From IMG/VR virus record IMGVR_UViG_3300021137_000001, positions 62,001 through 126,000 of that record: 64,000 nucleotides of DNA; one strand, written 5' to 3'. A model generated the notes under the pieces. That model did no database searches. It had not been told where the DNA came from and saw nothing but the letters and a program-made list of their open reading frames with translations. The stretch comes from a virus. Shown in pieces: positions 38,251 through 62,896 of the stretch; the first letter of the stretch is position 1; each line of letters starts with the position of its first letter. The position numbers were made by a program, and so were the translations under genes.

Positions 38251-40167
38251 ATGAGCAAAAATATCGTTCTAGGAATCGACCTCGGAACTACAAATAGTTG
38301 CGTCGCAATTTATGAAAATAACAAACCCCGTATAATTGAAAATAATGAAGGCGCACGTACTACACCATCAATCGTTGCTTATGGCGATGAGATTATTGTT
38401 GGCGCAAGTGCTAAACGTCAGTCAGTTACCAATCCAAAGAACACAATTTACGCAAGCAAACGACTTATTGGTCGCAAGTTTGACGAAGAAGCAGTACAAA
38501 AAGACATTGGCTTAATGCCATACAGTATCGTTAAGAACGTTAACGGTGATGCATGGGTAGAAGTTAACGGAGAGAAATTAGCACCTCCACAAATCTCAGC
38601 AGAAGTATTGCGCAAAATGAAATCAACCGCAGAAGACTATTTGGGTTATGCAGTAACGCAAGCAGTTATTACAGTACCAGCTTACTTCAATGATGCACAA
38701 CGTCAAGCAACTAAAGATGCAGGTCGTATTGCAGGCTTAGAAGTATTGCGTATTATTAACGAACCAACTGCAGCGGCATTAGCATTTGGTTGTGATAAAG
38801 GTGATAAAAAAGATCGCAAGATTGCTGTATATGACTTAGGTGGTGGTACATTTGACATTAGTATTATTGAAATTAGTGATGTAGATGGAGAGAAACAGTT
38901 TGAAGTACTTTCAACTAATGGCGATACATTCTTAGGTGGTGAAGACTTTGACCAACGTGTAATGGAATACTTAATCAGCGAGTTTAAGAAAGACTCTGGT
39001 ATTGATATTACTAAAGATATACTTGCACTACAACGCTTAAAAGAAGCCGCAGAGAAAGCAAAGATTGAGTTATCAAGCTCAACGCAAACAGAAGTAAATC
39101 TTCCATACATTACTGCTGACGCAACTGGTCCTAAGCATTTAGTTGTAAAACTTACCCGTGCTAAGTTCGAGAGTTTAGTTGAAGAACTAATTAAACGTTC
39201 AATTGATCCATGTAAGATTGCAGTTAAAGATTCTGGCATTAAAGTTAGCGACATTGATGATGTTATTCTTGTTGGCGGGCAAACACGTATGCCTAAAGTA
39301 CAAGAAGCTGTTGAAGCATTCTTTGGCAAAGCACCACGCAAAGACGTTAACCCAGATGAAGCAGTTGCAGTGGGTGCGGCAATTCAGGGTGCAGTGCTAG
39401 GTGGTGACAAAACAGACGTATTATTGCTTGATGTAACACCATTATCACTGGGAATTGAAACAATGGGTGGTATTATGACTAAGTTAATTAAGAAAAATAC
39501 AACTATCCCAACTAAAGCAAGCCAAACATTCTCTACAGCAGAGGATAATCAACCAGCTGTTACTGTTATGGTAGCACAAGGTGAGCGTGAATTTGTTAAA
39601 GACAACAAAGTACTTGGGCAGTTTAATTTAGAAGGTATCGCTCCAGCAATGCGCGGTGCTCCACAAATTGAAATTACACTAGACATTGATGCTAATGGTA
39701 TCTTAAAAGTAAGTGCTAAAGATAAAGCAACTGGCAAAGAAAACAAGATTACTATTAAAGCAAACAGTGGACTTACTGAAGCTGAAATTGAAGCAATGGT
39801 ACATGATGCAGAAGTTAATGCAGAAGCAGATACTAAGGCACGTGTAGTAGTCGAAGCAAAGAACGCGGCAGAAGCGCAAATCAATACAGTTAACAAAAAT
39901 CTTAAAGAACACGGCGATAAAATTACTGCTGAACAAAAGATTGAAATCGAAACTGCTATTACTGCGGCAGAAGCAACGTACACATCAGATGATGCAGAAG
40001 CAATTACTGCGGCAGTTGGTAAGGTATTTGAAGTTGCTAAACCATTGTTTGAAATTACTCAAGCACAAGAGTCGGCAACAGTTGAGCCAGGTGCGCAAAC
40101 AGAAACAGCGGCACAAGAAGGTGTTGTTGATGCAGAGTTTACGGAAGTTGATAAGGAGGCGAAATAA
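38251..40167 (+). CDS. dnaK: Hsp70 chaperone DnaK
   Basis: A full-length, 638-residue Hsp70. ATPase-domain signatures are [16 protein letters not shown] (residue 6), [15 protein letters not shown] (near 190) and [17 protein letters not shown] (near 337). The substrate domain follows the [15 protein letters not shown] linker, and the helical lid ends in an acidic Glu/Ala/Thr tail ending [11 protein letters not shown]. It would fold viral proteins; no DnaJ or GrpE is in the window, so host cochaperones are needed. The bacterial-type tail and full domain set suggest capture from a proteobacterial host. AGGAGA precedes the start; the stop overlaps the hsp20 start (TAATG). Confidence 0.95.
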
Positions 40168-49406: not shown

Positions 49407-50207
49407 GTGAATACAACAGTCACAAAATATAAAACGATCTGCATATCCGATTGTCATCTTGGCACTAAAGATGCGCAAGCAGACATACTCAACAACTTTC
49501 TTAAACATCATACTTGCGAAGACTTATTTTTAGTGGGTGATATTATTGATGGCTGGAAGATACAGCAAAACAAATGGCGTTGGAAACAAAGTCACACTAA
49601 CGTAATACGTAGACTACTTGGCTTTGCTAAACATGGAGTACGAGTTACATTTGTTACGGGCAATCACGATGAGTTTATTCGCCCATTTGTTGCGCATGGA
49701 TTAACATTTGACGGCATTTATGTATGCAATCAAGCAGAATACAGAAGTATAGATGGCAAATTGTTTTTAATAACACACGGTGATATGTTTGATGGTATTA
49801 CACGACTTGCTCCGTGGTTAAACTTCCTCGGCGACAAGGCATACGATGCTGTACTGTGGATTAATACACGCTTTAATTACCTCAGACATAGAATGGGATT
49901 TGGTTACTGGAGTCTTAGTAAGTACCTTAAACATAAAGTGAAGAAAGCGATTGATTTCGTGTTCAAATTTGAAGAAACCATTACCGATTACTGTGCAAAA
50001 CGTGGATTTGATGGCGTTATTTGCGGACATATACATACACCAGAGATTAAAACAATGCCGAATGGTATTATATACATGAATGACGGCGACTGGGTAGAAA
50101 CATGCAGTGCGCTAGTTGAACACTATGATGGACGATGGGAAATAATTTATTGGACAAAGGCAAGCGACAATGTGGATACTACTCCTGTTAGCCGTAAACG
50201 TAAGTGA
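49407..50207 (+). CDS. LpxH-like UDP-2,3-diacylglucosamine pyrophosphatase family phosphoesterase
   Basis: A 266-residue metallophosphoesterase. Metal ligands are seen in order: SDCHLG (residue 14), GDIIDGW (47), GNHDE (90), HGDMFD (125) and GHIHTPE (209). The family includes LpxH of lipid A synthesis, and this gene pair (phosphoesterase plus family 4 glycosyltransferase) is a common bacterial arrangement. GTG start with GGGGGA upstream. A small reading frame begins in its last 38 bases. Confidence 0.82.
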   Translation: MNTTVTKYKTICISDCHLGTKDAQADILNNFLKHHTCEDLFLVGDIIDGWKIQQNKWRWKQSHTNVIRRLLGFAKHGVRVTFVTGNHDEFIRPFVAHGLTFDGIYVCNQAEYRSIDGKLFLITHGDMFDGITRLAPWLNFLGDKAYDAVLWINTRFNYLRHRMGFGYWSLSKYLKHKVKKAIDFVFKFEETITDYCAKRGFDGVICGHIHTPEIKTMPNGIIYMNDGDWVETCSALVEHYDGRWEIIYWTKASDNVDTTPVSRKRK

Positions 50208-51387: not shown

Positions 51388-52143
51388 ATGCATAATTCTT
51401 CTCAACCTTATACCTATCTTATTGGATGGAGCAAATATAAAAAATATTATTACGGAGTTAGGTACGCTAAAAATTGTTTACCAACTGATTTATGGATTAA
51501 ATATTTCACCTCATCATTGATTGTTGCATCGACCCGAGTAGAACTCGGCGAGCCGGATATTATACAAGTTCGAAAAATATTTGTAACTAAAGAACAAGCA
51601 AGAAACTGGGAAACAAAGGTATTGAAACGAATGAAGGTAGTTGTTAGCGAAATGTTTCTTAATAAGAATGATAGACCTGCGCCACCAATAAGTAATCGAC
51701 CTATGTCAGAATATAATAAGAAAAAATTATTAGAAGCTAAATTAGGCAAACCTAGATCTGAAGTAACTAAACAAAAAATTAAAGAAGCAAGAGTTAACCA
51801 AGATATGAATTGCCGACTGGGGCATATTGTATCAGTAGAAACAAGACAAAAAATTCGTGATGCAAATTTAGGTAAAACAATGTCAGCTGACACAAAAGAC
51901 AAAATTTCAGCAGGCAACAAAGGAAAACATTTTGATAAACGATCAGTAGAAACAAGACAAAAAATTCGTGATGCAAATTTAGGTAAAACAATGTCAGCTG
52001 ACACAAAAGACAAAATTTCAGCAGGCAACAAAGGGAAACCAAAACCAATCACACAATGCCCGCATTGTTTAAAATTTGGTGGAGTTTCACAAATGCAACA
52101 GTGGCATTTTAATAAATGTAAACTTTTTAAGAAGGAAGTATAA
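51388..52143 (+). CDS. GIY-YIG-like homing endonuclease 11 (dehydrogenase site)
   Basis: A 251-residue divergent GIY-YIG nuclease: YTYLIGWSKYKKYYYGVRYAK is the core. Five NUMOD3-like repeats follow, two of which belong to a perfect 93-base direct repeat. The C-terminus is a CPHCLKFGG...QQWHFNKC zinc-finger-like motif like that of endonucleases 7 and 8. The start ATG 51388 follows ATAAATA by 4 bases; an alternative upstream frame start at 51364 overlaps the stub. The stop overlaps the next ATG (TAATG). Confidence 0.8.
   Translation: MHNSSQPYTYLIGWSKYKKYYYGVRYAKNCLPTDLWIKYFTSSLIVASTRVELGEPDIIQVRKIFVTKEQARNWETKVLKRMKVVVSEMFLNKNDRPAPPISNRPMSEYNKKKLLEAKLGKPRSEVTKQKIKEARVNQDMNCRLGHIVSVETRQKIRDANLGKTMSADTKDKISAGNKGKHFDKRSVETRQKIRDANLGKTMSADTKDKISAGNKGKPKPITQCPHCLKFGGVSQMQQWHFNKCKLFKKEV
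51831..51923 (+). repeat. 93-base direct repeat, copy 1
   Basis: Identical to 51942-52034 with an offset of 111 bases. Encodes a NUMOD3-like pair (SVETRQKIRDANLGK, SADTKDKISAG). A recent tandem duplication. Confidence 0.85.
51942..52034 (+). repeat. 93-base direct repeat, copy 2
   Basis: Second perfect copy of 51831-51923, in frame, adding one DNA-binding unit pair to the endonuclease. Confidence 0.85.
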
Positions 52144-52934
52144 TGGCAATTATCGGAATTATCGGGTTTGGGTATGTCGGTGGCGCAGTAGCAAGTAGCT
52201 ATGCTGAAGAGAAATTATTAATCAACGACCCTATTGTTCATCCAGCATCGTCAGTTAGTTACGCAACAATGATGAAAAAATGTCGTGCAATATTTGTATG
52301 TGTGCCAACTCCGGAATCAGAGGATGGCACTTGTAATATAAGCATTATGACATCAGTATTAAATGGATTAAAAGGTTACGATGGTTTAGTAATCTGCAAA
52401 TGTACTGCTCCTCCCGATATATATAAACAATTAGAACACGACTTAGATCTTAAACTTGTACATGTTCCAGAGTTTTTAACGCAAGCACGTGCAAATGATG
52501 ATTATATCAACCCACATAAAATAGTAGTTGGCTGTAAGAAAAAATTACGCGAAGAAGTTGCTGATGTGATAATGGCAAGTGCTGTTAACTTTGACAGAGA
52601 TAATATCGAATACTGTGATATTGCTACTGCAAGTTTCTTTAAGTACTTCGCTAACAATATGCTGGCTATCAAAGTTGTATTGAACAACGAGTTTTCTGTA
52701 TTAGCAGGTGCGATGGGTGTTAAGTGGGAAGATATTGCTAGCATAGCATCAACCGATTCGAGACTCGGTGACACACATTGGTCAGTACCGGGCCCAGACG
52801 GACAAGTTGGCTTTGGTGGTGCTTGCTTTCCAAAAGATACAGAAGCATTTGCAAAACTTGCGAAGCCACATAATGTAAAATTATCTGTGCTTAATGCCGC
52901 AATACTGGCTAATAAACTAATGCGTGACGAATAA
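52143..52934 (+). CDS. UDP-glucose/GDP-mannose dehydrogenase-like protein, short form
   Basis: A 263-residue protein. GIIGFGYVGGAVA near residue 6 is the NAD-binding motif, VPTPES near 57 and FFKYFANNMLAIKVVLNNE near 168 are family motifs, and FGGACFPKDTEAF near 222 contains the catalytic Cys. The C-terminal UDP-binding domain (about 130 residues) is missing, so it is a short form. It could make a sugar acid for surface glycans or lack activity. Its present start was supplied by or repaired after the endonuclease insertion. Confidence 0.8.
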   Translation: MAIIGIIGFGYVGGAVASSYAEEKLLINDPIVHPASSVSYATMMKKCRAIFVCVPTPESEDGTCNISIMTSVLNGLKGYDGLVICKCTAPPDIYKQLEHDLDLKLVHVPEFLTQARANDDYINPHKIVVGCKKKLREEVADVIMASAVNFDRDNIEYCDIATASFFKYFANNMLAIKVVLNNEFSVLAGAMGVKWEDIASIASTDSRLGDTHWSVPGPDGQVGFGGACFPKDTEAFAKLAKPHNVKLSVLNAAILANKLMRDE

Positions 52935-54241: not shown

Positions 54242-54356
54242 ATTAGATGTCTTTAATGGTTTTACGTATGTTAAATGGTGGTTTTCGGTGCTACTATAGT
54301 TATAAGTACTAGTAACAACACAACGTTGTTTTAGACTTTTATCTAGGAGAATTATT

Positions 54357-54428
54357 ATGTGGACTACACCAGCAGTTACTGAAATGAGATTTGGTATGGA
54401 AATTTGTATGTATGTGATGAACAAATAA
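54357..54428 (+). CDS. pqqA: PQQ precursor peptide PqqA
   Basis: A 23-codon gene with a strong AGGAG 7 bases before the ATG and a strong terminator 18 bases after the stop. The peptide starts MWTTPAVTEMRFG and ends MYVMNK. Length, the MW-x-x-P start, the R-x-G core, and Glu-15 and Tyr-19 (E-x3-Y) agree with bacterial PqqA, in which exactly those two side chains are joined by PqqE to build pyrroloquinoline quinone. No pqqBCDE is in the window, so host enzymes would process it. PQQ is the cofactor of methanol dehydrogenase, which suggests a methylotrophic host. Confidence 0.8.
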   Translation: MWTTPAVTEMRFGMEICMYVMNK

Positions 54429-54446
54429 TTATTGTTCTAAGTATAG

Positions 54447-54470
54447 AAAAGACACTCCGGTGTCTTTTTT
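54447..54470 (+). terminator. Rho-independent terminator after pqqA
   Basis: AAAAGACAC / GTGTCTTTT with a TCCG loop and a T tract. Confidence 0.9.
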
Positions 54471-54486
54471 AATGGCTAAATAATCA

Positions 54487-54515
54487 TTGACAGTAGAACA
54501 ATTTAGTGTTATAAT
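54487..54515 (+). promoter_or_regulatory. Sigma70-type promoter of the omega-like gene
   Basis: TTGACA at 54487, 17-base spacer, TATAAT at 54510. Perfect consensus. Confidence 0.85.
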
Positions 54516-54546: not shown

Positions 54547-54810
54547 ATGTCAAAAATAGCTTCAGTTGAGCAATACAATATCGATAACTGCGACGCAGTA
54601 TTTGATGGTAATCGATTCCAATTAATTTTAGCCGCAGGCGTTCGAGCGCATGAGATTGCAACAGCTCGTGTGACTGCATCACGTAATGCTGGCGCGACCG
54701 GAGTTCAAGTAAGGCATGATAATCTTGCTGTAGTTGCGGCACTACTTGAAGTTGACACTGGCAAGTTTGGTAAAGAGTATTTAAACAAAGTAGGCAAGAC
54801 AGGTAAGTAA
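54547..54810 (+). CDS. RNA polymerase omega subunit-like protein
   Basis: An 87-residue protein. GNRFQLILAAGVRAHEIA near residue 21 matches the first conserved helix of RpoZ (N-R-F-x-L-x-L-x-A-x-x-R-A-x-x-I/L) and NLAVVAALLEVDTGK near residue 60 matches the second (K-x-x-V-x-A-L-x-E-I). Omega helps hold the beta' subunit and affects promoter choice; a phage version could reshape host polymerase. A perfect sigma70 promoter implies early expression. Family assignment rests on two short motifs. Confidence 0.6.
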   Translation: MSKIASVEQYNIDNCDAVFDGNRFQLILAAGVRAHEIATARVTASRNAGATGVQVRHDNLAVVAALLEVDTGKFGKEYLNKVGKTGK

Positions 54811-55293: not shown

Positions 55294-55369
55294 GGGTCGA
55301 TAACTCACTCGGCGAGAGTACTGTGCTCATAACGCAGAAGGCAGGGATCATAACCCTGGCGACCCACCA
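55294..55369 (+). tRNA. tRNA with CAT anticodon (Met or Ile2)
   Basis: Acceptor GGGTCGA, anticodon arm CTGTG-CTCATAA-CGCAG, encoded CCA. The last acceptor pair (A7-G66) is mismatched and the T loop ATCATAA lacks the usual TTC, so the molecule is unusual. CAT could read AUG or, if lysidinylated, AUA. Confidence 0.75.
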
Positions 55370-55374
55370 ACAAA

Positions 55375-55452
55375 GCGTCCGTAGCTCATCTGGACTAGAG
55401 CATGGGATTTCTACTCCCAGGGTAGCTGGTTCGAATCCAGCCGGGCGCACCA
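55375..55452 (+). tRNA. tRNA-Arg (TCT)
   Basis: Acceptor GCGTCCG / CGGGCGC, anticodon arm TGGGA-TTTCTAC-TCCCA, T loop TTCGAAT, encoded CCA. Reads AGA, a codon frequent in AT-rich genes. Confidence 0.9.
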
Positions 55453-55473
55453 CTTTTTATATAAGGAAACACA

Positions 55474-55665
55474 ATGAGAACAAAGTCAGAATTTGATATT
55501 GCAATGGAAGAATTTTTAGCCAACGGTGGCGAAGTAAAACAAATAGCACGTGGCGTACAAAGTGAAACAGCAACAACAAACTTCTGGGGCGCACCAAAGA
55601 AAAAAGCCGCAGTAGAAGCAGTAAATGAGTTAGGCGCAACAGGTATTGACGTAATAGAAGAATAA
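55474..55665 (+). CDS. Small phage protein, unknown
   Basis: A 63-residue protein starting MRTKSEFDIAMEEFLANGGEVKQI, with AAGGAAAC upstream. Helical N-terminus and the short NFWGAPKKK motif; looks like a small DNA- or protein-binding helix pair. No family recognised. Confidence 0.55.
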   Translation: MRTKSEFDIAMEEFLANGGEVKQIARGVQSETATTNFWGAPKKKAAVEAVNELGATGIDVIEE

Positions 55666-55687
55666 TAATATCAGTTCAAAAATAAAA

Positions 55688-55695
55688 TATAAATA
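55688..55695 (+). promoter_or_regulatory. T4-late-type promoter
   Basis: Perfect TATAAATA, 28 bases before the TTG start of the next gene; GGAGGT lies between. Confidence 0.6.
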
Positions 55696-55722
55696 TATTA
55701 GTAATAATGGAGGTAACTCGAC

Positions 55723-56370
55723 TTGCACAATCCTGTAGAAAAACCAACTTGGTTATATAAACCTATCGATGATATCCCTGAATTGAATAAAATTCAAAAG
55801 GAATGTTTTCGAATCTATTCGGCTGTAAAGAAAGATATATGCAAAGATGTTGGCTGGGCCATTGCTGGAATAGAATTAGATATAATGAAAAAACTTGCAC
55901 CAAATTATATTAATTTTTTAAAAAAATTAGGGTTATACGAGATTTATGCCGGTACAGCATTTTCTGCTAGTATAGGGATACAAAAATATCCTTGTCCTGT
56001 ACACGTTGATTGTAAAGACTGGCGCCAATTACCATTTTCACTTAATATACCAGTTGTTGGATGTGAGGATAGTTATACTGTTTTTTATGATGTTGATGAA
56101 TCATCCGATCCTGCAAACGCATTACCAGATACATGGGATAATAATTATATGAAAATGAATAAAATTGAAGGAGTGGTCGGATATTCCGAAAAAACAGCAA
56201 AAGAAATTGGCAGAATGCCTGCTACCCAACCTGCATTTGTAAACATTGGTATTCCTCACCGCCCTGTGACAAATCATACTAATCTAAGATTAGTTATGTT
56301 ATCGAGATTTACACCTGACATATTTGATTATGTAAATAATGACATATTTAAAACTAAATTATCAGAATAA
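55723..56370 (+). CDS. Fe(II)/2-oxoglutarate-dioxygenase-like protein
   Basis: A 215-residue protein starting at TTG with GGAGGT 9 bases upstream. YPCPVHVDCKDWRQLPFSLNIPV near residue 87 gives an H-x-D pair, and NIGIPHRPVTNHTNLRLVML near residue 183 gives the distal His and the Arg, the ligand set of double-stranded-beta-helix Fe(II)/2OG enzymes. Marine T4-like phages carry many such enzymes of unknown substrate. The fold call rests on these motifs only. Confidence 0.5.
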   Translation: MHNPVEKPTWLYKPIDDIPELNKIQKECFRIYSAVKKDICKDVGWAIAGIELDIMKKLAPNYINFLKKLGLYEIYAGTAFSASIGIQKYPCPVHVDCKDWRQLPFSLNIPVVGCEDSYTVFYDVDESSDPANALPDTWDNNYMKMNKIEGVVGYSEKTAKEIGRMPATQPAFVNIGIPHRPVTNHTNLRLVMLSRFTPDIFDYVNNDIFKTKLSE

Positions 56371-56411
56371 TACCAGTTCAAAAATAAATGATAAATAATT
56401 AGATAAAGTGC

Positions 56412-56440
56412 TTGACAAGAGTATAAATAGAATATATAAT
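56412..56440 (+). promoter_or_regulatory. Sigma70-type promoter upstream of the tRNA region
   Basis: TTGACA at 56412, 17-base spacer, TATAAT at 56435; the spacer also contains TATAAATA. Confidence 0.7.
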
Positions 56441-56474
56441 AGTTGTATAAGTTAATAAGGAAGTGAGAAAACAA

Positions 56475-56600
56475 ATGTTCAAATCGTTACATCAGTTTAA
56501 GATATCAACACTCGTGCAGTTATGCGGCGTGTCTTCTTATTGGTCAGCGATTGAGATGAATACGAGTGATCGCGCACCGAATAGAAAGGGTTTAAGTTAA
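56475..56600 (+). CDS. Possible 41-residue leader peptide
   Basis: A frame starting MFKSLHQFKISTLVQL after AAGGAAGTGAG, ending before a terminator. Basic, with one Cys. No relative recognised; the promoter, ribosome-binding site and terminator around it make expression plausible. Confidence 0.4.
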   Translation: MFKSLHQFKISTLVQLCGVSSYWSAIEMNTSDRAPNRKGLS

Positions 56601-56629
56601 CGTTTATTATTATATATGAATTTTTACTT

Positions 56630-56661
56630 AAACCTTAGAATTAAAAACTCTAAGGTTTTTT
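56630..56661 (+). terminator. Rho-independent terminator
   Basis: AAACCTTAGA / TCTAAGGTTT with a 9-base loop and a T tract. Confidence 0.9.
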
Positions 56662-56900
56662 GCTTTTAGCAGTAAGTGTTTTGGAAACGAGGTCCATAAC
56701 TAAACACTATAAAGATTGTAAGTTGAACGGGCGGAACTAGGGATGAAGCACCTTGTGTGGTGTGAAAAATCTAGCATAATAAAGTACATTAATCGGCAAC
56801 TAGGTCCCACGCAATGTGGATTATGTCAGAGGCGAGTAATTAGTGTGCTTTATTATACGCATTCACATGAGTGCGGTACACAATTTGTAGTGCATTTTGT
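56662..56900 (+). ncRNA. Gene-free stretch with structured RNA candidate
   Basis: No reading frame. AGTGTTT/AAACACT (56670-56703) is a short hairpin. An 18-pair stem joins 56776-56793 with 56839-56856 (two G-U pairs), enclosing CCAC/GTGG. CGCATTCA/TGAGTGCG forms another hairpin at 56858-56875. The large stem has relatives at 57796 and 58812. Likely part of the tRNA precursor; no known RNA family is recognised. Confidence 0.45.
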
Positions 56901-56975
56901 CAGGGTATAGCTCAGCCTGGCCAGAGTCCTCGGTTTGGAACCGAGTTGTCGTAAGTTCGAATCTTACTACCCTGA
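56901..56975 (+). tRNA. tRNA-Pro (TGG)
   Basis: Acceptor CAGGGTA / TACCCTG, anticodon arm CTCGG-TTTGGAA-CCGAG, T loop TTCGAAT, no encoded CCA. The acceptor stem continues outwards by 10 further perfect base pairs (TGCATTTTGT / ACAAAATGCA), so the discriminator A is paired. Confidence 0.85.
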
Positions 56976-56999
56976 CAAAATGCATTACTTAAAAAGAGG

Positions 57000-57028
57000 T
57001 TAACACATACGGTAATTGGTAGTATAAT
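57000..57028 (+). promoter_or_regulatory. Sigma70-type promoter of the tRNA-Glu unit
   Basis: TTAACA at 57000, 17-base spacer, TATAAT at 57023. A boxA-like site follows. Confidence 0.65.
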
Positions 57029-57050
57029 AGCTACTTGAAGTTAAGTAATA

Positions 57051-57062
57051 CGCTCTTTAACA
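57051..57062 (+). promoter_or_regulatory. boxA-like antitermination site
   Basis: CGCTCTTTAACA, identical to the boxA core of bacterial rRNA operon leaders that binds NusB-S10. It lies between the promoter at 57000 and tRNA-Glu, where an antitermination signal for a long tRNA transcript would be expected. Confidence 0.6.
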
Positions 57063-57080
57063 GTTTGGAAGTTTTACAAT

Positions 57081-57153
57081 ATCGCATTCATCTAGTGGCC
57101 TAAGATACTGCCCTTTCACGGCAGGTACACGGATTCGAATTCCGTATGCGATA
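57081..57153 (+). tRNA. tRNA-Glu (TTC)
   Basis: Acceptor ATCGCAT / ATGCGAT, anticodon arm CTGCC-CTTTCAC-GGCAG, T loop TTCGAAT, no encoded CCA. A1-T72 instead of the usual G1-C72 is unusual for tRNA-Glu. Confidence 0.82.
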
Positions 57154-57169
57154 CACATAGTAAATTTTG

Positions 57170-57177
57170 TATAAATA
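57170..57177 (+). promoter_or_regulatory. T4-late-type promoter, leaderless geometry
   Basis: Perfect TATAAATA, then CAAGT and ATG at 57183. Confidence 0.65.
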
Positions 57178-57182
57178 CAAGT

Positions 57183-57794
57183 ATGACATATTACTACTTG
57201 TATCAAATCACTAATTTAGTGAATGCAAAAATTTACGTTGGAGTACATAAAACGAAATCATTAGATGACGGATATATGGGCTCTGGAAAAATTATTCAAT
57301 GTGCAATTAAAAAACACGGAATTGATAATTTTAAAAAAGACATACTTGAGACTTTTGACACATCAGAAGCTATGTATGCACGTGAGAAAGAAATAGTAAC
57401 AGATCAGTTTCTGTTACGCGAAGATACCTATAACTTACGTAGAGGCGGAACTGGCGGATTTGATTATATAAACAAGCAACCATGGGTGCATACTACAAAC
57501 AGGATAATAGGAGATATAAAGAAAAGTAAAACATTAAAAGGTAGACGCCCTTCTGAAAATACGTTAATAGCAGTAAGGTTAATGCATCAAGACGGAAGAG
57601 TAAAGTATGATACGTTTACTGGTAAACAGCATACCATCGAAACTAAACAAAAAATGTCAATTGCGAAAAAAGGAAAAGGATGCAATCAGCATAACAGTCA
57701 ATTCGGTACTATATGGATAACGGATGGTATAAGTAACAAAAAAATAAAGAAAGATGTTACTATTCCAGAAGGATGGAATAGAGGTAGAAGTTAA
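57183..57794 (+). CDS. GIY-YIG homing endonuclease 13 (tRNA site)
   Basis: A 203-residue GIY-YIG nuclease with YYYLYQITNLVNAKIYVGVHKTK as core, IKKHGIDNFKKDILE next and a TIETKQKMSIAKKGKGC NUMOD3-like unit before the C-terminus. No ribosome-binding site; start at the late promoter +1. It sits between tRNA-Glu and the hairpin before tRNA-Gln. Confidence 0.85.
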   Translation: MTYYYLYQITNLVNAKIYVGVHKTKSLDDGYMGSGKIIQCAIKKHGIDNFKKDILETFDTSEAMYAREKEIVTDQFLLREDTYNLRRGGTGGFDYINKQPWVHTTNRIIGDIKKSKTLKGRRPSENTLIAVRLMHQDGRVKYDTFTGKQHTIETKQKMSIAKKGKGCNQHNSQFGTIWITDGISNKKIKKDVTIPEGWNRGRS

Positions 57795-57795
57795 G

Positions 57796-57907
57796 ACCAT
57801 ATTAAAACATATTTGACCAAGTCGGTGTTCCTTGATGCTAGGATTAGAGCGGACAGCAGTCCGCGAGATGTAGTTGCGATATTACAGCAAGTGTGTTTTA
57901 ATATAGT
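57796..57907 (+). ncRNA. Long hairpin before tRNA-Gln
   Basis: 57796-57815 pairs with 57888-57907 over 20 positions with one mismatch and two G-U pairs. Inside, GCGGAC-AGCA-GTCCGC is a perfect hairpin. The outer arms resemble those of the hairpins at 56776 and 58812. Confidence 0.5.
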
Positions 57908-57915
57908 AAGTCTAT

Positions 57916-57989
57916 TGGCTCATGGTGTAGTGGTAGCACAACAGGTTTTGATCCTGTTAGTTGTAGTTCGATTCTACATGGGCCTGCCA
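57916..57989 (+). tRNA. tRNA-Gln (TTG)
   Basis: Acceptor TGGCTCA / TGGGCCT (open first pair, as in many tRNA-Gln), anticodon arm ACAGG-TTTTGAT-CCTGT, T loop TTCGATT, G73 and encoded CCA. Confidence 0.88.
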
Positions 57990-58031
57990 AGTTTTAATGG
58001 AGTGGAAATACCATACTATCAGTCCGTTATG

Positions 58032-58039
58032 TATAAATA
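58032..58039 (+). promoter_or_regulatory. T4-late-type promoter
   Basis: Perfect TATAAATA, 19 bases before the nuclease start, with TAGGAGA between. Confidence 0.65.
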
Positions 58040-58058
58040 CATATATAGGAGAACTGAT

Positions 58059-58457
58059 ATGTTTAAGAACAGTAAGAAACAAGGTGACGCTGGATTAGGG
58101 CAAGCAATAGCATATTTTACAATGAAAGGATATGATGTTGCGTTGCCACTAACAGATAGCGCAGACTGGGATATGATTGTTGAGATAGATGGTGAACTTA
58201 AAAGAGTCCAAGTTAAAACATCTAAACAACTATCTAAAACGGGTATAATGATGTTTAATGCTAATGTAAATGGCGGCAACATGTCATTTAATAAAAAACC
58301 TAAACTTATACCAGAACAACAATGGGATTTATTGTTCTTACATCACTTAGTGACAAATAAGCAAGCATTGATTCCTAAAGAAGCACTAACTACAAAAGGT
58401 CAAGTGAACTTAGGTAGTAGTCAATGTAAGTATAAAGATTTTATGATTAATGGATGA
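58059..58457 (+). CDS. PD-(D/E)XK nuclease related to intron endonucleases
   Basis: A 132-residue nuclease. GLGQAIAYFTMKGYDVALPLTDSADWDMIVEIDGELKRVQVKTSKQ near residue 13 as a whole matches the small PD-(D/E)XK endonuclease family that includes the group I intron enzyme I-Ssp6803I; the D-x-x-V...V-Q-V-K catalytic part is clear. AGGAG precedes the start at 58059. Its stop codon is made by bases 4-6 of tRNA-Tyr, so it ends in its presumed target, like the homing genes elsewhere. Confidence 0.75.
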   Translation: MFKNSKKQGDAGLGQAIAYFTMKGYDVALPLTDSADWDMIVEIDGELKRVQVKTSKQLSKTGIMMFNANVNGGNMSFNKKPKLIPEQQWDLLFLHHLVTNKQALIPKEALTTKGQVNLGSSQCKYKDFMING

Positions 58458-58537
58458 GCGGCGCAGTTGGAGAGGCGCGGGAGACTGTAAATCTCTTTTC
58501 CCTGAATGAGTAGGTTCGAATCTTACCTCATCCACCA
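58452..58537 (+). tRNA. tRNA-Tyr (GTA)
   Basis: Acceptor GGATGAG / CTCATCC, anticodon loop CTGTAAA, long variable arm, T loop TTCGAAT, encoded CCA. The first six bases are the last codons of the nuclease gene. Confidence 0.9.
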
Positions 58538-58684
58538 ATTTAGTTGTGTCGTCGGTTCGAAGCCAACCTGTAATCAAGCGAAATAGCAGTTACAGTAGTT
58601 TACTTGGTAAAACAACAACAATTTTTGTAGTAAATTTAATAGGAGCAACACATGAAGCGAGTTAAACTTTAGTGTCGTCTTTAA
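58538..58684 (+). other. Spacer with tRNA-like fragment, hairpin and mini-ORF
   Basis: GTCGG-TTCGAAG-CCAAC (58551-58567) looks like an isolated T arm, maybe a tRNA relic. CTGTAA/TTACAG is a hairpin at 58569-58596. AGGAG then ATG at 58652 opens a six-codon frame (MKRVKL). No full tRNA is present. Confidence 0.35.
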
Positions 58685-58743
58685 TCCCATTGTACTGTAT
58701 TAAAGGTAACGGCACGTTAAATCTTTAATACAGTACAATGGGA
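58685..58743 (+). ncRNA. Perfect 21-pair hairpin reaching into tRNA-Lys
   Basis: 58685-58705 and 58723-58743 are perfect inverted copies around a 17-base loop. The 3' arm includes the first four bases of tRNA-Lys (58740-58743), so the hairpin and the tRNA acceptor stem exclude each other. Confidence 0.7.
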
Positions 58744-58815
58744 GTATGGTGAAATTGGTTATCACATGGGACTTTTAATCCTTCGTTCAGAGTTCAAGTC
58801 TCTGTGCTCCTACCA
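58740..58815 (+). tRNA. tRNA-Lys (TTT)
   Basis: Acceptor GGGAGTA / TGCTCCT, anticodon loop CTTTTAA, T loop TTCAAGT, encoded CCA. The anticodon stem outermost pair is T-T. Both ends of the tRNA are also part of flanking hairpins. Confidence 0.85.
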
Positions 58816-58923
58816 TAAGAAAGTACATTGCTAACGCCTCTGAGAAGGGTTCCGGTAGTCCTGTATCAATTAATAGCTAAGTCAGCAGATGGGTTCGCTG
58901 AATGTAGTGTACTTCCTTATGGT
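58812..58923 (+). ncRNA. Long hairpin between tRNA-Lys and tRNA-His
   Basis: 58812-58831 pairs with the region ending at 58923 over about 20 positions with one mismatch and G-U pairs. The 5' arm begins with the ACCA end of tRNA-Lys. Inside are CAGC/GCTG and other short stems. Arms are related to those at 56776 (both contain AAAGTACATT). Confidence 0.5.
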
Positions 58924-58929
58924 TTCAAT

Positions 58930-59004
58930 GTTGTTTATAGTGTAGCGATAACACCCCATCCTGTGAAGATGGTATCACGAGTTTGAACCTCGTTAGACAA
59001 CCCA
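58930..59004 (+). tRNA. tRNA-His (GTG)
   Basis: The encoded G at -1 (58930) faces C73, the histidine identity pair. Acceptor TTGTTTA / TAGACAA, anticodon arm CCATC-CTGTGAA-GATGG, encoded CCA. Confidence 0.9.
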
Positions 59005-59061
59005 ACTTTTAATATGGCTTCCGTCCGTAGAATACTGCTTGCAGTCGGCCCGGAAGTTCTT

Positions 59062-59137
59062 TGGCCGATTCGTATAATGATCATTACACGGGATTGTCTA
59101 TCCTGCTATGAGAGTTTGATTCTCTCATCGGTCGCCA
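59062..59137 (+). tRNA. tRNA-Asp (GTC)
   Basis: Acceptor GGCCGAT / ATCGGTC, anticodon loop TTGTCTA, T loop TTTGATT, G73 and encoded CCA. A hairpin CTTCCG/CGGAAG with inner ACTGC-TT-GCAGT lies just upstream. Confidence 0.88.
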
Positions 59138-59360
59138 AGTTTTAAAATAATAGTTGACAGTGTGTATTAGAACTGTTACACTATGTAGATAGTAACAAAT
59201 AAGTATTTGGAAGAAAGTCGCAACTTAATGTATTCGTGGGAAGGAGAGTGCGACATCCCGTCCGAAAGAGTAGGTGATGCTACGGTGTAACTCCGTCATT
59301 TGAATTACTGTATGATTCTGCACATACTTAACAGGCATGTATTTGCCGCAGAACTTATAT
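59138..59360 (+). other. Gene-free spacer with promoter and hairpins
   Basis: Contains a sigma70-type promoter at 59154, GTCGCA/TGCGAC (59217-59254) enclosing a polypurine AAGGAGAG, ACGG/CCGT, and TTCTGC/GCAGAA just before tRNA-fMet. No reading frame of note. Confidence 0.45.
59154..59182 (+). promoter_or_regulatory. Sigma70-type promoter inside the tRNA cluster
   Basis: TTGACA at 59154, 17-base spacer, TACACT at 59177; serves tRNA-fMet, Thr and Gly. Confidence 0.65.
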
Positions 59361-59435
59361 CGCGGAGTGGGGAAGTGGCAACCCGGAAGGCTCATAACCT
59401 TTAGATCGGCAGTTCGAATCTGTCCTCCGCAACCA
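59361..59435 (+). tRNA. Initiator-like tRNA-fMet (CAT)
   Basis: C1 faces A72, the unpaired first position that marks bacterial initiator tRNA. Acceptor CGCGGAG / CTCCGCA, anticodon loop CTCATAA, A73 and encoded CCA. The anticodon stem has only two of the three G-C pairs expected in an initiator. Confidence 0.82.
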
Positions 59436-59440
59436 GTAAT

Positions 59441-59515
59441 GCCGCCTTAGCTCATTTGGTAGAGCAACGCACTTGTAATGCGTAGGCGCCCAGTTCGAAC
59501 CCGGGAGGCGGACCA
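59441..59515 (+). tRNA. tRNA-Thr (TGT)
   Basis: Anticodon arm CGCA-CTTGTAA-TGCG, D arm and T loop TTCGAAC normal, encoded CCA. The 3' acceptor strand lacks the base that should pair with G1 (GGCGG-ACCA), and one T-stem pair is A-C. Confidence 0.8.
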
Positions 59516-59523
59516 ATTTTAAT

Positions 59524-59597
59524 GCGGCTATGATGTAATGGTAACCTAAAACTTTGCCAAAGTTTAATCGCGAGTTCGATTCTCGCTAGCCGCTCCA
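59524..59597 (+). tRNA. tRNA-Gly (GCC)
   Basis: Acceptor GCGGCTA / TAGCCGC, anticodon arm AAACT-TTGCCAA-AGTTT, T loop TTCGATT, T73 and encoded CCA. Confidence 0.92.
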
Positions 59598-59605
59598 AAT
59601 TTTGC

Positions 59606-59634
59606 TTGACAAAATGTCAAAACGAATGTATAAT
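59606..59634 (+). promoter_or_regulatory. Sigma70-type early promoter
   Basis: Perfect TTGACA at 59606, 17-base spacer, perfect TATAAT at 59629. The -35 box is half of an inverted repeat (TTGACA-AAA-TGTCAA), comparable to the dnaK promoter. Confidence 0.85.
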
Positions 59635-59661
59635 ACACTTAATTAAAAAAAGGAGGCTGAC

Positions 59662-60054
59662 ATGTACTACGATGAAGTAAAGTTTGAAGAATTAAAAGGT
59701 AAGGTATTAGTTAGTGCAACAGTCTCTGACTATAAAGATGAAATGAAGTTTGTAACAACAGACGGCGAAATATATACTTTGTATCACGCACAAGATTGTT
59801 GTGAATCAGTGGAAATTGAATCTATCGTTGGTGACTTAGCTGATTTAGTTGGCGAAGAAATCTTAATGGCAGAAGAAGCACAAAACTTATTTGACTTGAT
59901 TAAATCTGCAGGAGTCGAAGAAGAAGATGAATACGGTTCACACACTTGGACATTTTACAAACTAGCAACTCGCAAAGGGTACGTTGACATCAGATGGTAT
60001 GGTTCGAGCAACGGGTACTATTCAGAGGAAGTTTCTTTTAAAAGAGAGAAATAA
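59662..60054 (+). CDS. Conserved phage protein (DUF7448-like)
   Basis: A 130-residue acidic protein. FEELKGKVLVSATVSDYKDEMKFVTTDGEIYTLYHAQDCCESV and GSHTWTFYKLATRKGYVDIRWYGSSNGYYSEEV as a pattern match a small domain found in many phages and some bacteria (I recall the label DUF7448, not checked). Early promoter and GGAGG site precede it. Function unknown. Confidence 0.65.
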   Translation: MYYDEVKFEELKGKVLVSATVSDYKDEMKFVTTDGEIYTLYHAQDCCESVEIESIVGDLADLVGEEILMAEEAQNLFDLIKSAGVEEEDEYGSHTWTFYKLATRKGYVDIRWYGSSNGYYSEEVSFKREK

Positions 60055-60055
60055 T

Positions 60056-60217
60056 ATGACTTCTAAAAAACCACAGTGGGTTAAAGATAAAGAAGCACTG
60101 CAAACTGCGCCCCCAGAGACAATTATTATAATTGGCAAAATGGGCGCAGATGGTGTTATTAACGGTCGGCTACCGAGCGGTGAAATCTATCATCGCAATA
60201 AAAGGCAACATAGATAA
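60056..60217 (+). CDS. Small early protein
   Basis: A 53-residue basic protein starting MTSKKPQWVKDKEAL, 1 base after the previous stop, containing TIIIIGKMGADGVINGR. Stop overlaps the next ATG (TAATG). Unknown function. Confidence 0.5.
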   Translation: MTSKKPQWVKDKEALQTAPPETIIIIGKMGADGVINGRLPSGEIYHRNKRQHR

Positions 60218-60588
60218 TGGACTTTACAATTGACCCAGAGTACTTAACAAGTGTAACTATTCGCGATGAGTGGAACACGTATACACGTAATGGTCGTGTA
60301 CCTACAGCAGAAGAACTTATTTTAATTATTCAAGGCAAGGGTGAGTGCTCGACTACTAGTTCAGCCGACCACCCAGAGTTTGCTAAGTTACGTGAGGAAC
60401 TAGGTTTGCTACGTTATATTCATATACAGCGTAGTTGGTGGAATGGCGATAGTGTATTAAAACCATTCACACTTAACGGAAGAAAGTTTAAGGTAGGAGC
60501 ACAGTTTAGCAGTGGTAGTGCAATGGGTACACACCTTATTGTACGTGCTAAACACCCAGAATATTATAAGGATGAATATGATGATTAA
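60217..60588 (+). CDS. Conserved phage protein, unknown
   Basis: A 123-residue protein with IRDEWNTYTRNGRVPTAEEL near residue 15 and IHIQRSWWNGDSVLKPFTLNGRKFKVG near 69. Mixed alpha/beta; no enzyme motif. Overlaps the next gene by about 11 bases. Confidence 0.55.
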   Translation: MDFTIDPEYLTSVTIRDEWNTYTRNGRVPTAEELILIIQGKGECSTTSSADHPEFAKLREELGLLRYIHIQRSWWNGDSVLKPFTLNGRKFKVGAQFSSGSAMGTHLIVRAKHPEYYKDEYDD

Positions 60589-61066
60589 ACCATGGATTGA
60601 AAACGTTAGTATGAAAGACGTACAAGTAGGCGAGCACTTTGATGCTGGCACTAACTCTATGCTTATTCAAATCGTTGACCCTATTACTCTTTTTCCAACA
60701 CCAAAGTTTGCATTTAAAGAAGTGCATCAGTTTAAGTTTTTAGATGCAGAAGATACTGACGTTGCAGAGTACGGCGAAGAGCCATTGATTAGCGATCAGC
60801 AAGCAGAAGCAATTTTACAGTTGCTACAACGTGCGCTAGCCGACAATATGAACATTGTTGTACATTGTCACGCTGGTTTATGTCGTAGTGGTGCAGTAGT
60901 AGAAATTGGTGTTATGATGGGCTTTAGAGATACTGAAAAGTTTCGCAGTCCTAACCTACGTGTTAAACACAAACTAATGAAATTGCTTGGGCTAACACAT
61001 AACCCAGATGAGCAACACAACTGGCGTGATGATTATAGACATCACTTAACTAAAAGCAATATGTAA
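60578..61066 (+). CDS. Protein-tyrosine-phosphatase-like protein
   Basis: A 162-residue protein. IVVHCHAGLCRSGAVVEIG near residue 95 is the H-C-x5-R-S/T-G active site of cysteine-dependent phosphatases. The rest resembles dual-specificity phosphatases of phages. It could dephosphorylate host proteins or RNA 5' ends. Start placed at ATG 60578 (AAGG 6 bases upstream); ATG 60572 and 60581 are alternatives. Confidence 0.8.
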   Translation: MMIKPWIENVSMKDVQVGEHFDAGTNSMLIQIVDPITLFPTPKFAFKEVHQFKFLDAEDTDVAEYGEEPLISDQQAEAILQLLQRALADNMNIVVHCHAGLCRSGAVVEIGVMMGFRDTEKFRSPNLRVKHKLMKLLGLTHNPDEQHNWRDDYRHHLTKSNM

Positions 61067-61077
61067 AGGAGTAGTAC

Positions 61078-61272
61078 ATGATTAAGTTATCCCCAACGGG
61101 TAAGATATCCAAAAATGCTAACAAAGAACTTTGTCTTAACACCGAGTTCAAAGTTAGCATTGATGTACGTAATGTAACGTACGATAACATTGATGAAAAG
61201 ATTGCTGAGCTTATTGCAGAGGCACACAAAGTCAAACAAGTACTCGAACAAAACATAGTAACATCAAATTAA
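61078..61272 (+). CDS. Small early protein, unknown
   Basis: A 64-residue protein starting MIKLSPTGKISKNANK, beta then helix (EKIAELIAEAHKVKQVL). AAGGAG precedes the start. No family recognised. Ends 8 bases before tRNA-Phe. Confidence 0.55.
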   Translation: MIKLSPTGKISKNANKELCLNTEFKVSIDVRNVTYDNIDEKIAELIAEAHKVKQVLEQNIVTSN

Positions 61273-61280
61273 AAGAATAC

Positions 61281-61356
61281 GCAACCTTAGCTCATCTGGT
61301 AGAGCACCTGCTTGAAGCGCAGGGTGTGTTTGGTTCAAGTCCAAGAGGTTGCACCA
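61281..61356 (+). tRNA. tRNA-Phe (GAA)
   Basis: Acceptor GCAACCT / AGGTTGC, anticodon arm CCTGC-TTGAAGC-GCAGG, T loop TTCAAGT, encoded CCA. Separate from the main cluster. Confidence 0.92.
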
Positions 61357-61993: not shown

Positions 61994-62896
61994 ATGCTTA
62001 GACTCTGTATTGCATCAGATATACATTTGGAGTTTGGTAGCATTGAATTAACCAATACCTCTAATGCTGACGTGCTAATCTTAGCTGGCGATATATGTGT
62101 TGCTCGTGACATTGAATTAGCTGGCAAGAATATGTACAGCAATCGTAAACGTGCTGATCGTTATATTGAATTCTTTCAGCAGGTAAGTCGTGCGTTCCCT
62201 AAAGTTATTTACGTAGTGGGCAATCACGAGCACTATGATGGTGATGTTAAGTACACAAACGGCATTCTTAAACGTGCATTAGCAGAGTTTGAAAACATTC
62301 ATATACTTGAAAAAGAAACATTGGAACTTGGTGACGTTACATTTATCGGTGCTACTATGTGGACTGATATGAATGGGGGCGATCCACTTACACTAGCGGG
62401 CATTAAAAATGCAATGAATGACTTTAGGTGCATTGATAACAGCAACAACATGGTTCAACGTAAAGTCCCATTATACGATGAAGGTGGTGAATTTAATAGT
62501 GTACGTAATGTTATTGGGTTTAAGTTTAAAGAAGAAGCAAGCAAGTTTACACCAACTGATGCTATGGATGATCACAAGCAGGCAATAGATTATATCAATC
62601 ATGTTGTTACTAATGATACAACTAAGAAATATGTAGTTGTGGGACATCACGCACCAAGTATGCAAAGCTGTGCTGATAGATTTCGTGGCGACAGGATTAT
62701 GAACGGCGGGTTCTATACAGAGCTCGGTGACTTTATGGCATACCGCCCTCAGATTGCCTGCTGGATTCACGGTCACACTCACGATCCATACGATTATGTC
62801 ATTGGGGAAACACGTGTTGTATGTAATCCACGTGGTTATATTGGATACGAAGCACAAGCAGTTGATTTTGAGTTAAAATACATAGATGTTGCATAA
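61994..62896 (+). CDS. Calcineurin-like metallophosphoesterase
   Basis: A 300-residue metallophosphoesterase: SDIHLEFG (residue 8), GDIC (31), GNHEHYD (76), GHHAPS (219) and GHTHDPYD (255) provide the metal ligands. Similar phage proteins are known; possible substrates are cyclic nucleotides, mRNA ends or nucleotides. The start has AAAGGATAC 11 bases upstream. Confidence 0.85.
   Translation: MLRLCIASDIHLEFGSIELTNTSNADVLILAGDICVARDIELAGKNMYSNRKRADRYIEFFQQVSRAFPKVIYVVGNHEHYDGDVKYTNGILKRALAEFENIHILEKETLELGDVTFIGATMWTDMNGGDPLTLAGIKNAMNDFRCIDNSNNMVQRKVPLYDEGGEFNSVRNVIGFKFKEEASKFTPTDAMDDHKQAIDYINHVVTNDTTKKYVVVGHHAPSMQSCADRFRGDRIMNGGFYTELGDFMAYRPQIACWIHGHTHDPYDYVIGETRVVCNPRGYIGYEAQAVDFELKYIDVA

Follow-up and report, generated by a model that had tools for sequence, protein, structure and literature searches.

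A genuine pqqA gene in a T4-like jumbo phage and its probable role in host PQQ synthesis during infection

Cyanophage psbA is a phage auxiliary metabolic gene, derived from the host and provided for a rapidly consumed component of host energy metabolism. The product of the gene described here, pqqA, differs in being neither an enzyme nor a subunit of a complex, but the peptide substrate of a cofactor pathway. In that pathway, the Glu and Tyr residues of a Glu-X-X-X-Tyr motif in PqqA become PQQ, replacement of this Glu by Asp or of the Tyr by Phe abolishes PQQ, and the PqqA level exceeds that of PqqC and PqqE approximately 20-fold (PMC2294125). Such an excess, together with the essential Glu and Tyr, fits a substrate that is consumed one-for-one. 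Published hosts possess 3 to 12 pqqA genes with one pqqBCDE set (PMC4109929), and the ten host genomes that we compared contained 1 to 12 copies apiece; the presence of multiple pqqA copies per pqqBCDE set implies that the hosts already make use of pqqA dosage. Phage PqqA is itself already known, because a single sentence of an earlier paper ascribes it to VP_266, a virus population of Lake Baikal (PMC7678222, Microbiome 2020), and viral pqqA also appears in a reservoir list (PMC13188868). VP_266 is a Methylophilaceae-assigned, T4-like phage contig for which the same role in methanol oxidation was proposed; compared by its published description, it differs from the phage studied here in also encoding methanol dehydrogenase, for which our phage has no match.

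The window, i.e. the whole 64,000-nucleotide stretch that was analyzed, represents positions 62,001 to 126,000 of the IMG/VR record IMGVR_UViG_3300021137_000001 (G000; 329,321 bases). The record is a T4-like jumbo phage, with a Gp23 major capsid protein (278.7 bits) and a terminase (59.7 bits) encoded outside of the window and a DnaB-like helicase and NrdA encoded within it; the best matches of the helicase are jumbo phages such as PA5oct. These four genes and the synteny with sibling phages described below place pqqA in phage DNA rather than in host DNA. The phage also encodes a full-length DnaK (HSP70, 830 bits; window 38251-40167), relatives of which occur in 80 or more viral contigs, and 13 tRNA genes are clustered at window positions 55294-61356, starting right after the pqqA region.

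The reading frame at window positions 54357-54428 on the plus strand encodes MWTTPAVTEMRFGMEICMYVMNK, followed by a stop codon (Table 1). A preliminary description, made from the letters alone, had recognized this product as PqqA by its length of 23 residues, its MW-x-x-P start and the spacing of Glu-15 and Tyr-19, all of which are present, and had named a profile search as the means of checking the identification. The peptide scored well above the curated cut-offs of both Pfam PF08042 (34.3 versus 21.1 bits, E = 2.3e-8) and the NCBIfam equivalog TIGR02107 (38.7 versus 20 bits, E = 6e-10), and was the single PqqA match in the whole 329-kb record (E = 8e-8 at genome scale). As befits PqqA, it is a free-standing short peptide of approximately 23 amino acids with a start, a stop and a ribosome-binding site, and E15 and Y19 provide the Glu-X-X-X-Tyr motif. 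The ribosome-binding site and terminator that had been assigned to the gene are likewise in place. A consensus terminator scanner did not include the terminator hairpin in its output, probably because the stem runs into the T tract, and the leader matched no known RNA family in Rfam. Identical pqqA DNA was found in two more contigs of the same virus (L278 and L279), which come from separate metagenome assemblies and therefore exclude an assembly error. The sequence evidence thus confirms that this is a genuine phage-borne pqqA rather than a chance open reading frame.

Table 1. Positions of pqqA, its signals and its neighbors in the window, and of pqqA genes in published methylophage genomes
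Feature	Position	Strand	Basis
Calcineurin-like phosphoesterase, syntenic upstream marker	49407..50207	+	74-76% in siblings
UDP-glucose/GDP-mannose dehydrogenase-like gene, upstream neighbor	52143..52934	+	Pfam; synteny
56-nt leader with predicted hairpin	54301..54356	+	identical in sibling contigs L370, L372
Ribosome-binding site AGGAG, 7 nt 5′ of ATG	54345..54349	+	read in sequence
pqqA, 23-aa PQQ precursor peptide MWTTPAVTEMRFGMEICMYVMNK	54357..54428	+	PF08042, TIGR02107, same-virus contigs
Cross-link core Glu-15 to Tyr-19 (E-I-C-M-Y)	54399..54413	+	sequence; PMC2294125 for motif chemistry
Intrinsic-terminator hairpin: 12-bp stem, UCCG loop, T run	54444..54471	+	predicted fold
RNA polymerase omega-like gene (Rpb6/RpoZ)	54547..54810	+	Pfam Rpb6 23.3 bits, below cut-off 26
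Unannotated pqqA in published methylophage genomes	L002 4004-4075; L004 2501; L005 2501; L006 621; L007 1018; L008 2495		

A scan of IMG/VR with a degenerate DNA pattern detected pqqA in at least 120 contigs. In a second scan, residues 15 and 19 were left free; Glu-15 and Tyr-19, whose loss in relatives would have spoken against the original identification, were nevertheless both kept in all 119 of the peptides analyzed, and the length was exactly 23 residues in every one. Over codons 14-23, pN/pS was 0.10 in frame versus 1.4 and 3.4 in the shifted frames, and this comparison of sequences shows that phage pqqA is under purifying selection. The 154 loci analyzed, some of which repeat a contig, fall into 32 flanking-gene groups, indicating that pqqA resides in many unrelated contexts. 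An RBS-like motif precedes 144 of 151 viral copies and a terminator follows 57 of these 151, versus 21 of 712 ordinary ORF ends.

The preliminary description had further suggested looking for the gene in related phages, and four sibling viral contigs (95-219 kb; DnaK 86% identical) were found to contain exactly one pqqA apiece. In each, pqqA occupies the same syntenic stretch, 3′ of the phosphoesterase gene and, in one sibling, of the UDP-sugar dehydrogenase gene as well; in sibling L368/L389/L390 the dehydrogenase-like gene is 76-81% identical and lies directly upstream of pqqA. The leader is 100% the same as that of one sibling type (L370, L372), yet the pqqA codons differ from it at 19 of 72 bases. 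A hairpin followed by a T run is found after each sibling pqqA, with a different sequence in every copy. Some more distant phage relatives have no pqqA on the fragments examined. In siblings L368, L369 and L370, a gene for an AhpC peroxiredoxin is located just 3′ of pqqA and a Porin_O_P gene beside it, and in two of them (L368/L369) a c-type cytochrome gene lies beyond AhpC. This set is possibly a module that aids electron flow or counters oxidative stress in methanol oxidation. Such a module of cytochrome c and AhpC beside pqqA was not upheld for the genome studied here, from which both genes are absent as judged by tblastn, and the sibling AhpC gave no pointer to the identity of the host. 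The gene that follows pqqA in the window is the omega-like gene, which has a sigma-70-like promoter of its own, with a perfect TTGACA-17-TATAAT sequence at 54487-54515, and relatives with 71-73% identity in six other viral contigs (L280-L285); omega-like loci with 72% identity have no pqqA directly upstream. The omega-like subunit could serve to modify the host RNA polymerase.

Queries with the PqqB, C, D and E proteins of a host operon gave no tblastn match either in the whole 329-kb genome or in 1.2 Mb surrounding viral pqqA genes, while in the positive control 18-22 host loci responded to each query. The initial statement that no PQQ synthesis enzymes are encoded therefore holds for the full 329-kb record, in which no PqqD was found; the phage does not possess a complete PQQ pathway with pqqB, pqqC, pqqD and pqqE in addition to pqqA. 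The phage has nine radical-SAM matches, among them several with SPASM/twitch character. As candidates for PqqE they were dismissed, since they are of the B12 type or the twitch type (NF033640) and not one of them matches PqqE. Twitch/SPASM radical-SAM genes (NF033640) occur at least five in a row at about 265000-273000 of the record (G000:C1; L271, L274-L276), and more radical-SAM and B12-type genes are present at other sites of the phage genome. No methanol dehydrogenase was found in the 329-kb phage, the one match to PF13360 (PQQ-enzyme repeat) being rejected because it belongs to a tail-like protein with an Mtd_N tail-tropism domain.

Among cultured phages, pqqA is associated with methylotroph hosts. 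A tblastn search of 50,697 phage records yielded ten matches, nine of which are Methylophilales phage records and one an uncultured spring-water podovirus. The gene is present in six Methylophilales phage types (P19250A, MEP301, MEP401, MEP402, Venkman and Melnitz) and in all complete cultured methylophage genomes examined, a sample in which HIM624-A is represented by a partial structural region only and outside which MEP431-434 and EXVC038S fall. Queries of the Pseudomonas and Methylobacterium types, which were approximate sequences, added just two records, labeled Acinetobacter phage; these 'Acinetobacter phage MD-2021a' matches were not counted, being probably bacterial contigs misfiled as phage sequences, because records of the same name carry a DnaK gene. 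Other phage-labeled records that resemble bacterial contigs and match pqqA or DnaK are CAKLQF020000010.1, CAKLQH020000055.1 and some records named 'Listeria phage LM' or 'Escherichia phage ECO95'. Melnitz has a relative among the SAR11 phages, HTVC008M (PMC9004378), which is present among the 50,697 records and gave no PqqA match by tblastn.

As in the phage studied here, pqqA of the six cultured types is solitary, with no PQQ enzyme gene nearby, and the peptides are 54-83% identical to that of the window. These phages differ in being of unrelated types, with genomes of 35-142 kb, and none is close kin of this jumbo phage; for P19250A, pqqA is nearly the sole DNA shared with other methylophages. 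Sense-strand pqqA was annotated at none of the loci inspected, where antisense hypotheticals alone were annotated, and in Melnitz-1 and MW202481 an antisense hypothetical ORF had been called in place of pqqA. A gene below the usual length cut-offs is hidden from standard gene callers. The papers describing MEP301 and MEP401/402 do not mention PQQ, and in that on Melnitz it figures solely as an ingredient of the culture medium, at 1 nM for the OM43 strain H5P1 (PMC9004378). The breadth of pqqA across cultured methylophages thus appears to have no earlier report in the literature searched.

The phage gene also resembles pqqA of Methylophilaceae hosts, which likewise encodes 23 amino acids with W2, P5, R11, G13, E15 and Y19 and an EMRFG + MYVMNK signature, and which occurs as separate, dispersed genes, each with its own RBS and terminator. 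Among the matches listed from a search of 84,980 prokaryote species, the signature EMRFGxExxxMYVMNK belonged to Methylophilaceae or to less precisely labeled proteobacterial bins. Based on this peptide type and on the hosts of the other phages with pqqA, the host of this phage would be a member of the Methylophilaceae; the methylotroph setting, a guess in the preliminary description, is thus supported by both the peptide and the Methylophilales phage matches. The closest of the host copies compared differs from the window gene at 12 of 72 bases. Where hosts have GFEVTMY, the window peptide has GMEICMY, as opposed to the GFE(V/I)T(M/L)Y shared by every other copy examined, viral or host, the changes being F14M, V16I and T17C. 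Met-14 and Cys-17 are restricted to this phage population among those copies, and when Met-14 within the core was scanned for specifically, the matches all came from this virus population.

We consider it probable that phage pqqA supplies the consumed component of host PQQ synthesis, sustaining methanol dehydrogenase during infection. Phage PqqA would be bound by host PqqD, after which host PqqE would join Glu-15 to Tyr-19 and the joined product would be excised and finished to PQQ by host proteases, PqqB and PqqC. The resulting PQQ would serve as cofactor for the XoxF/MxaF methanol dehydrogenases. Each PQQ made would use up one PqqA, the only component so consumed, whereas the enzymes persist. 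A gene of 72 bases would thus be the least costly means of holding or increasing the PQQ level, and with it the energy gained from methanol, once host gene expression has been shut down. From the sequences we infer expression, conversion to PQQ and a benefit to the phage, and methanol oxidation might even be raised during infection. The three core changes, of which M14 and C17 occur in no other copy examined, count against this explanation, as do the more distant relatives with no pqqA on the fragments examined and the 72%-identical omega-like loci with none directly upstream.

The same changes (M14, I16 and C17) lie beside the cross-linked residues and would be in keeping with a decoy, a phage peptide that occupies PqqD/PqqE but is poorly converted, so that PQQ falls and methanol oxidation, or some host process that depends on PQQ, is blocked. 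We regard such a decoy as quite unlikely, because loss of Glu-15 or Tyr-19 would be expected of it, whereas the two residues that react, like the core around them, are invariant across phages and for the most part identical to those of host PqqA. Conversion of the peptide into a modified product other than PQQ, e.g. through Cys-17 with the help of a radical-SAM protein encoded by the phage itself, seems highly improbable: Cys-17 is exclusive to this lineage and several of the nine radical-SAM matches are of the SPASM/twitch type, but no radical-SAM gene lies near pqqA, these genes belong mostly to the generic family NF033640, and the relatives keep a normal PqqA core.

It is also very unlikely that the gene is a decaying passenger, a host pqqA acquired by chance and unused. 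Evolution has been somewhat faster in the window copy than in the rest, with a pN/pS of 0.27 versus 0.16 for all pairs, but this copy has kept intact its frame and length as well as its RBS, leader and terminator, pqqA has been retained in the four sibling contigs, and pN/pS is approximately 0.1 across phages. A role of the DNA itself, e.g. as a site of recombination or attachment that matches the many dispersed pqqA copies of the hosts, has hardly any likelihood given that exact matches to the host loci compared extend to 19 bp at most and that the variation is synonymous and protein-conserving. Supply of the consumed precursor to the host pathway remains the preferred reading.

Our studies lead us to favor, somewhat tentatively, the broader view that nearly all Methylophilaceae phages, of unrelated morphotypes (35 to >320 kb), carry pqqA, a gene that they have acquired repeatedly and that has so far been overlooked, and that it is lacking in phages of non-methylotrophs, even where their hosts use PQQ. 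If so, the supply of PqqA would be a general chokepoint of methylophage infection, and this 23-amino-acid gene would serve as a host marker for uncultured viruses and unassigned viral contigs. It offers a simple, testable case in which a phage provides the single consumed substrate of a cofactor pathway rather than an enzyme. The Methylophilaceae are major methanol oxidizers of lakes and coastal seas, and C1 oxidation may be kept up or increased by infection if all of their phages bring PqqA.
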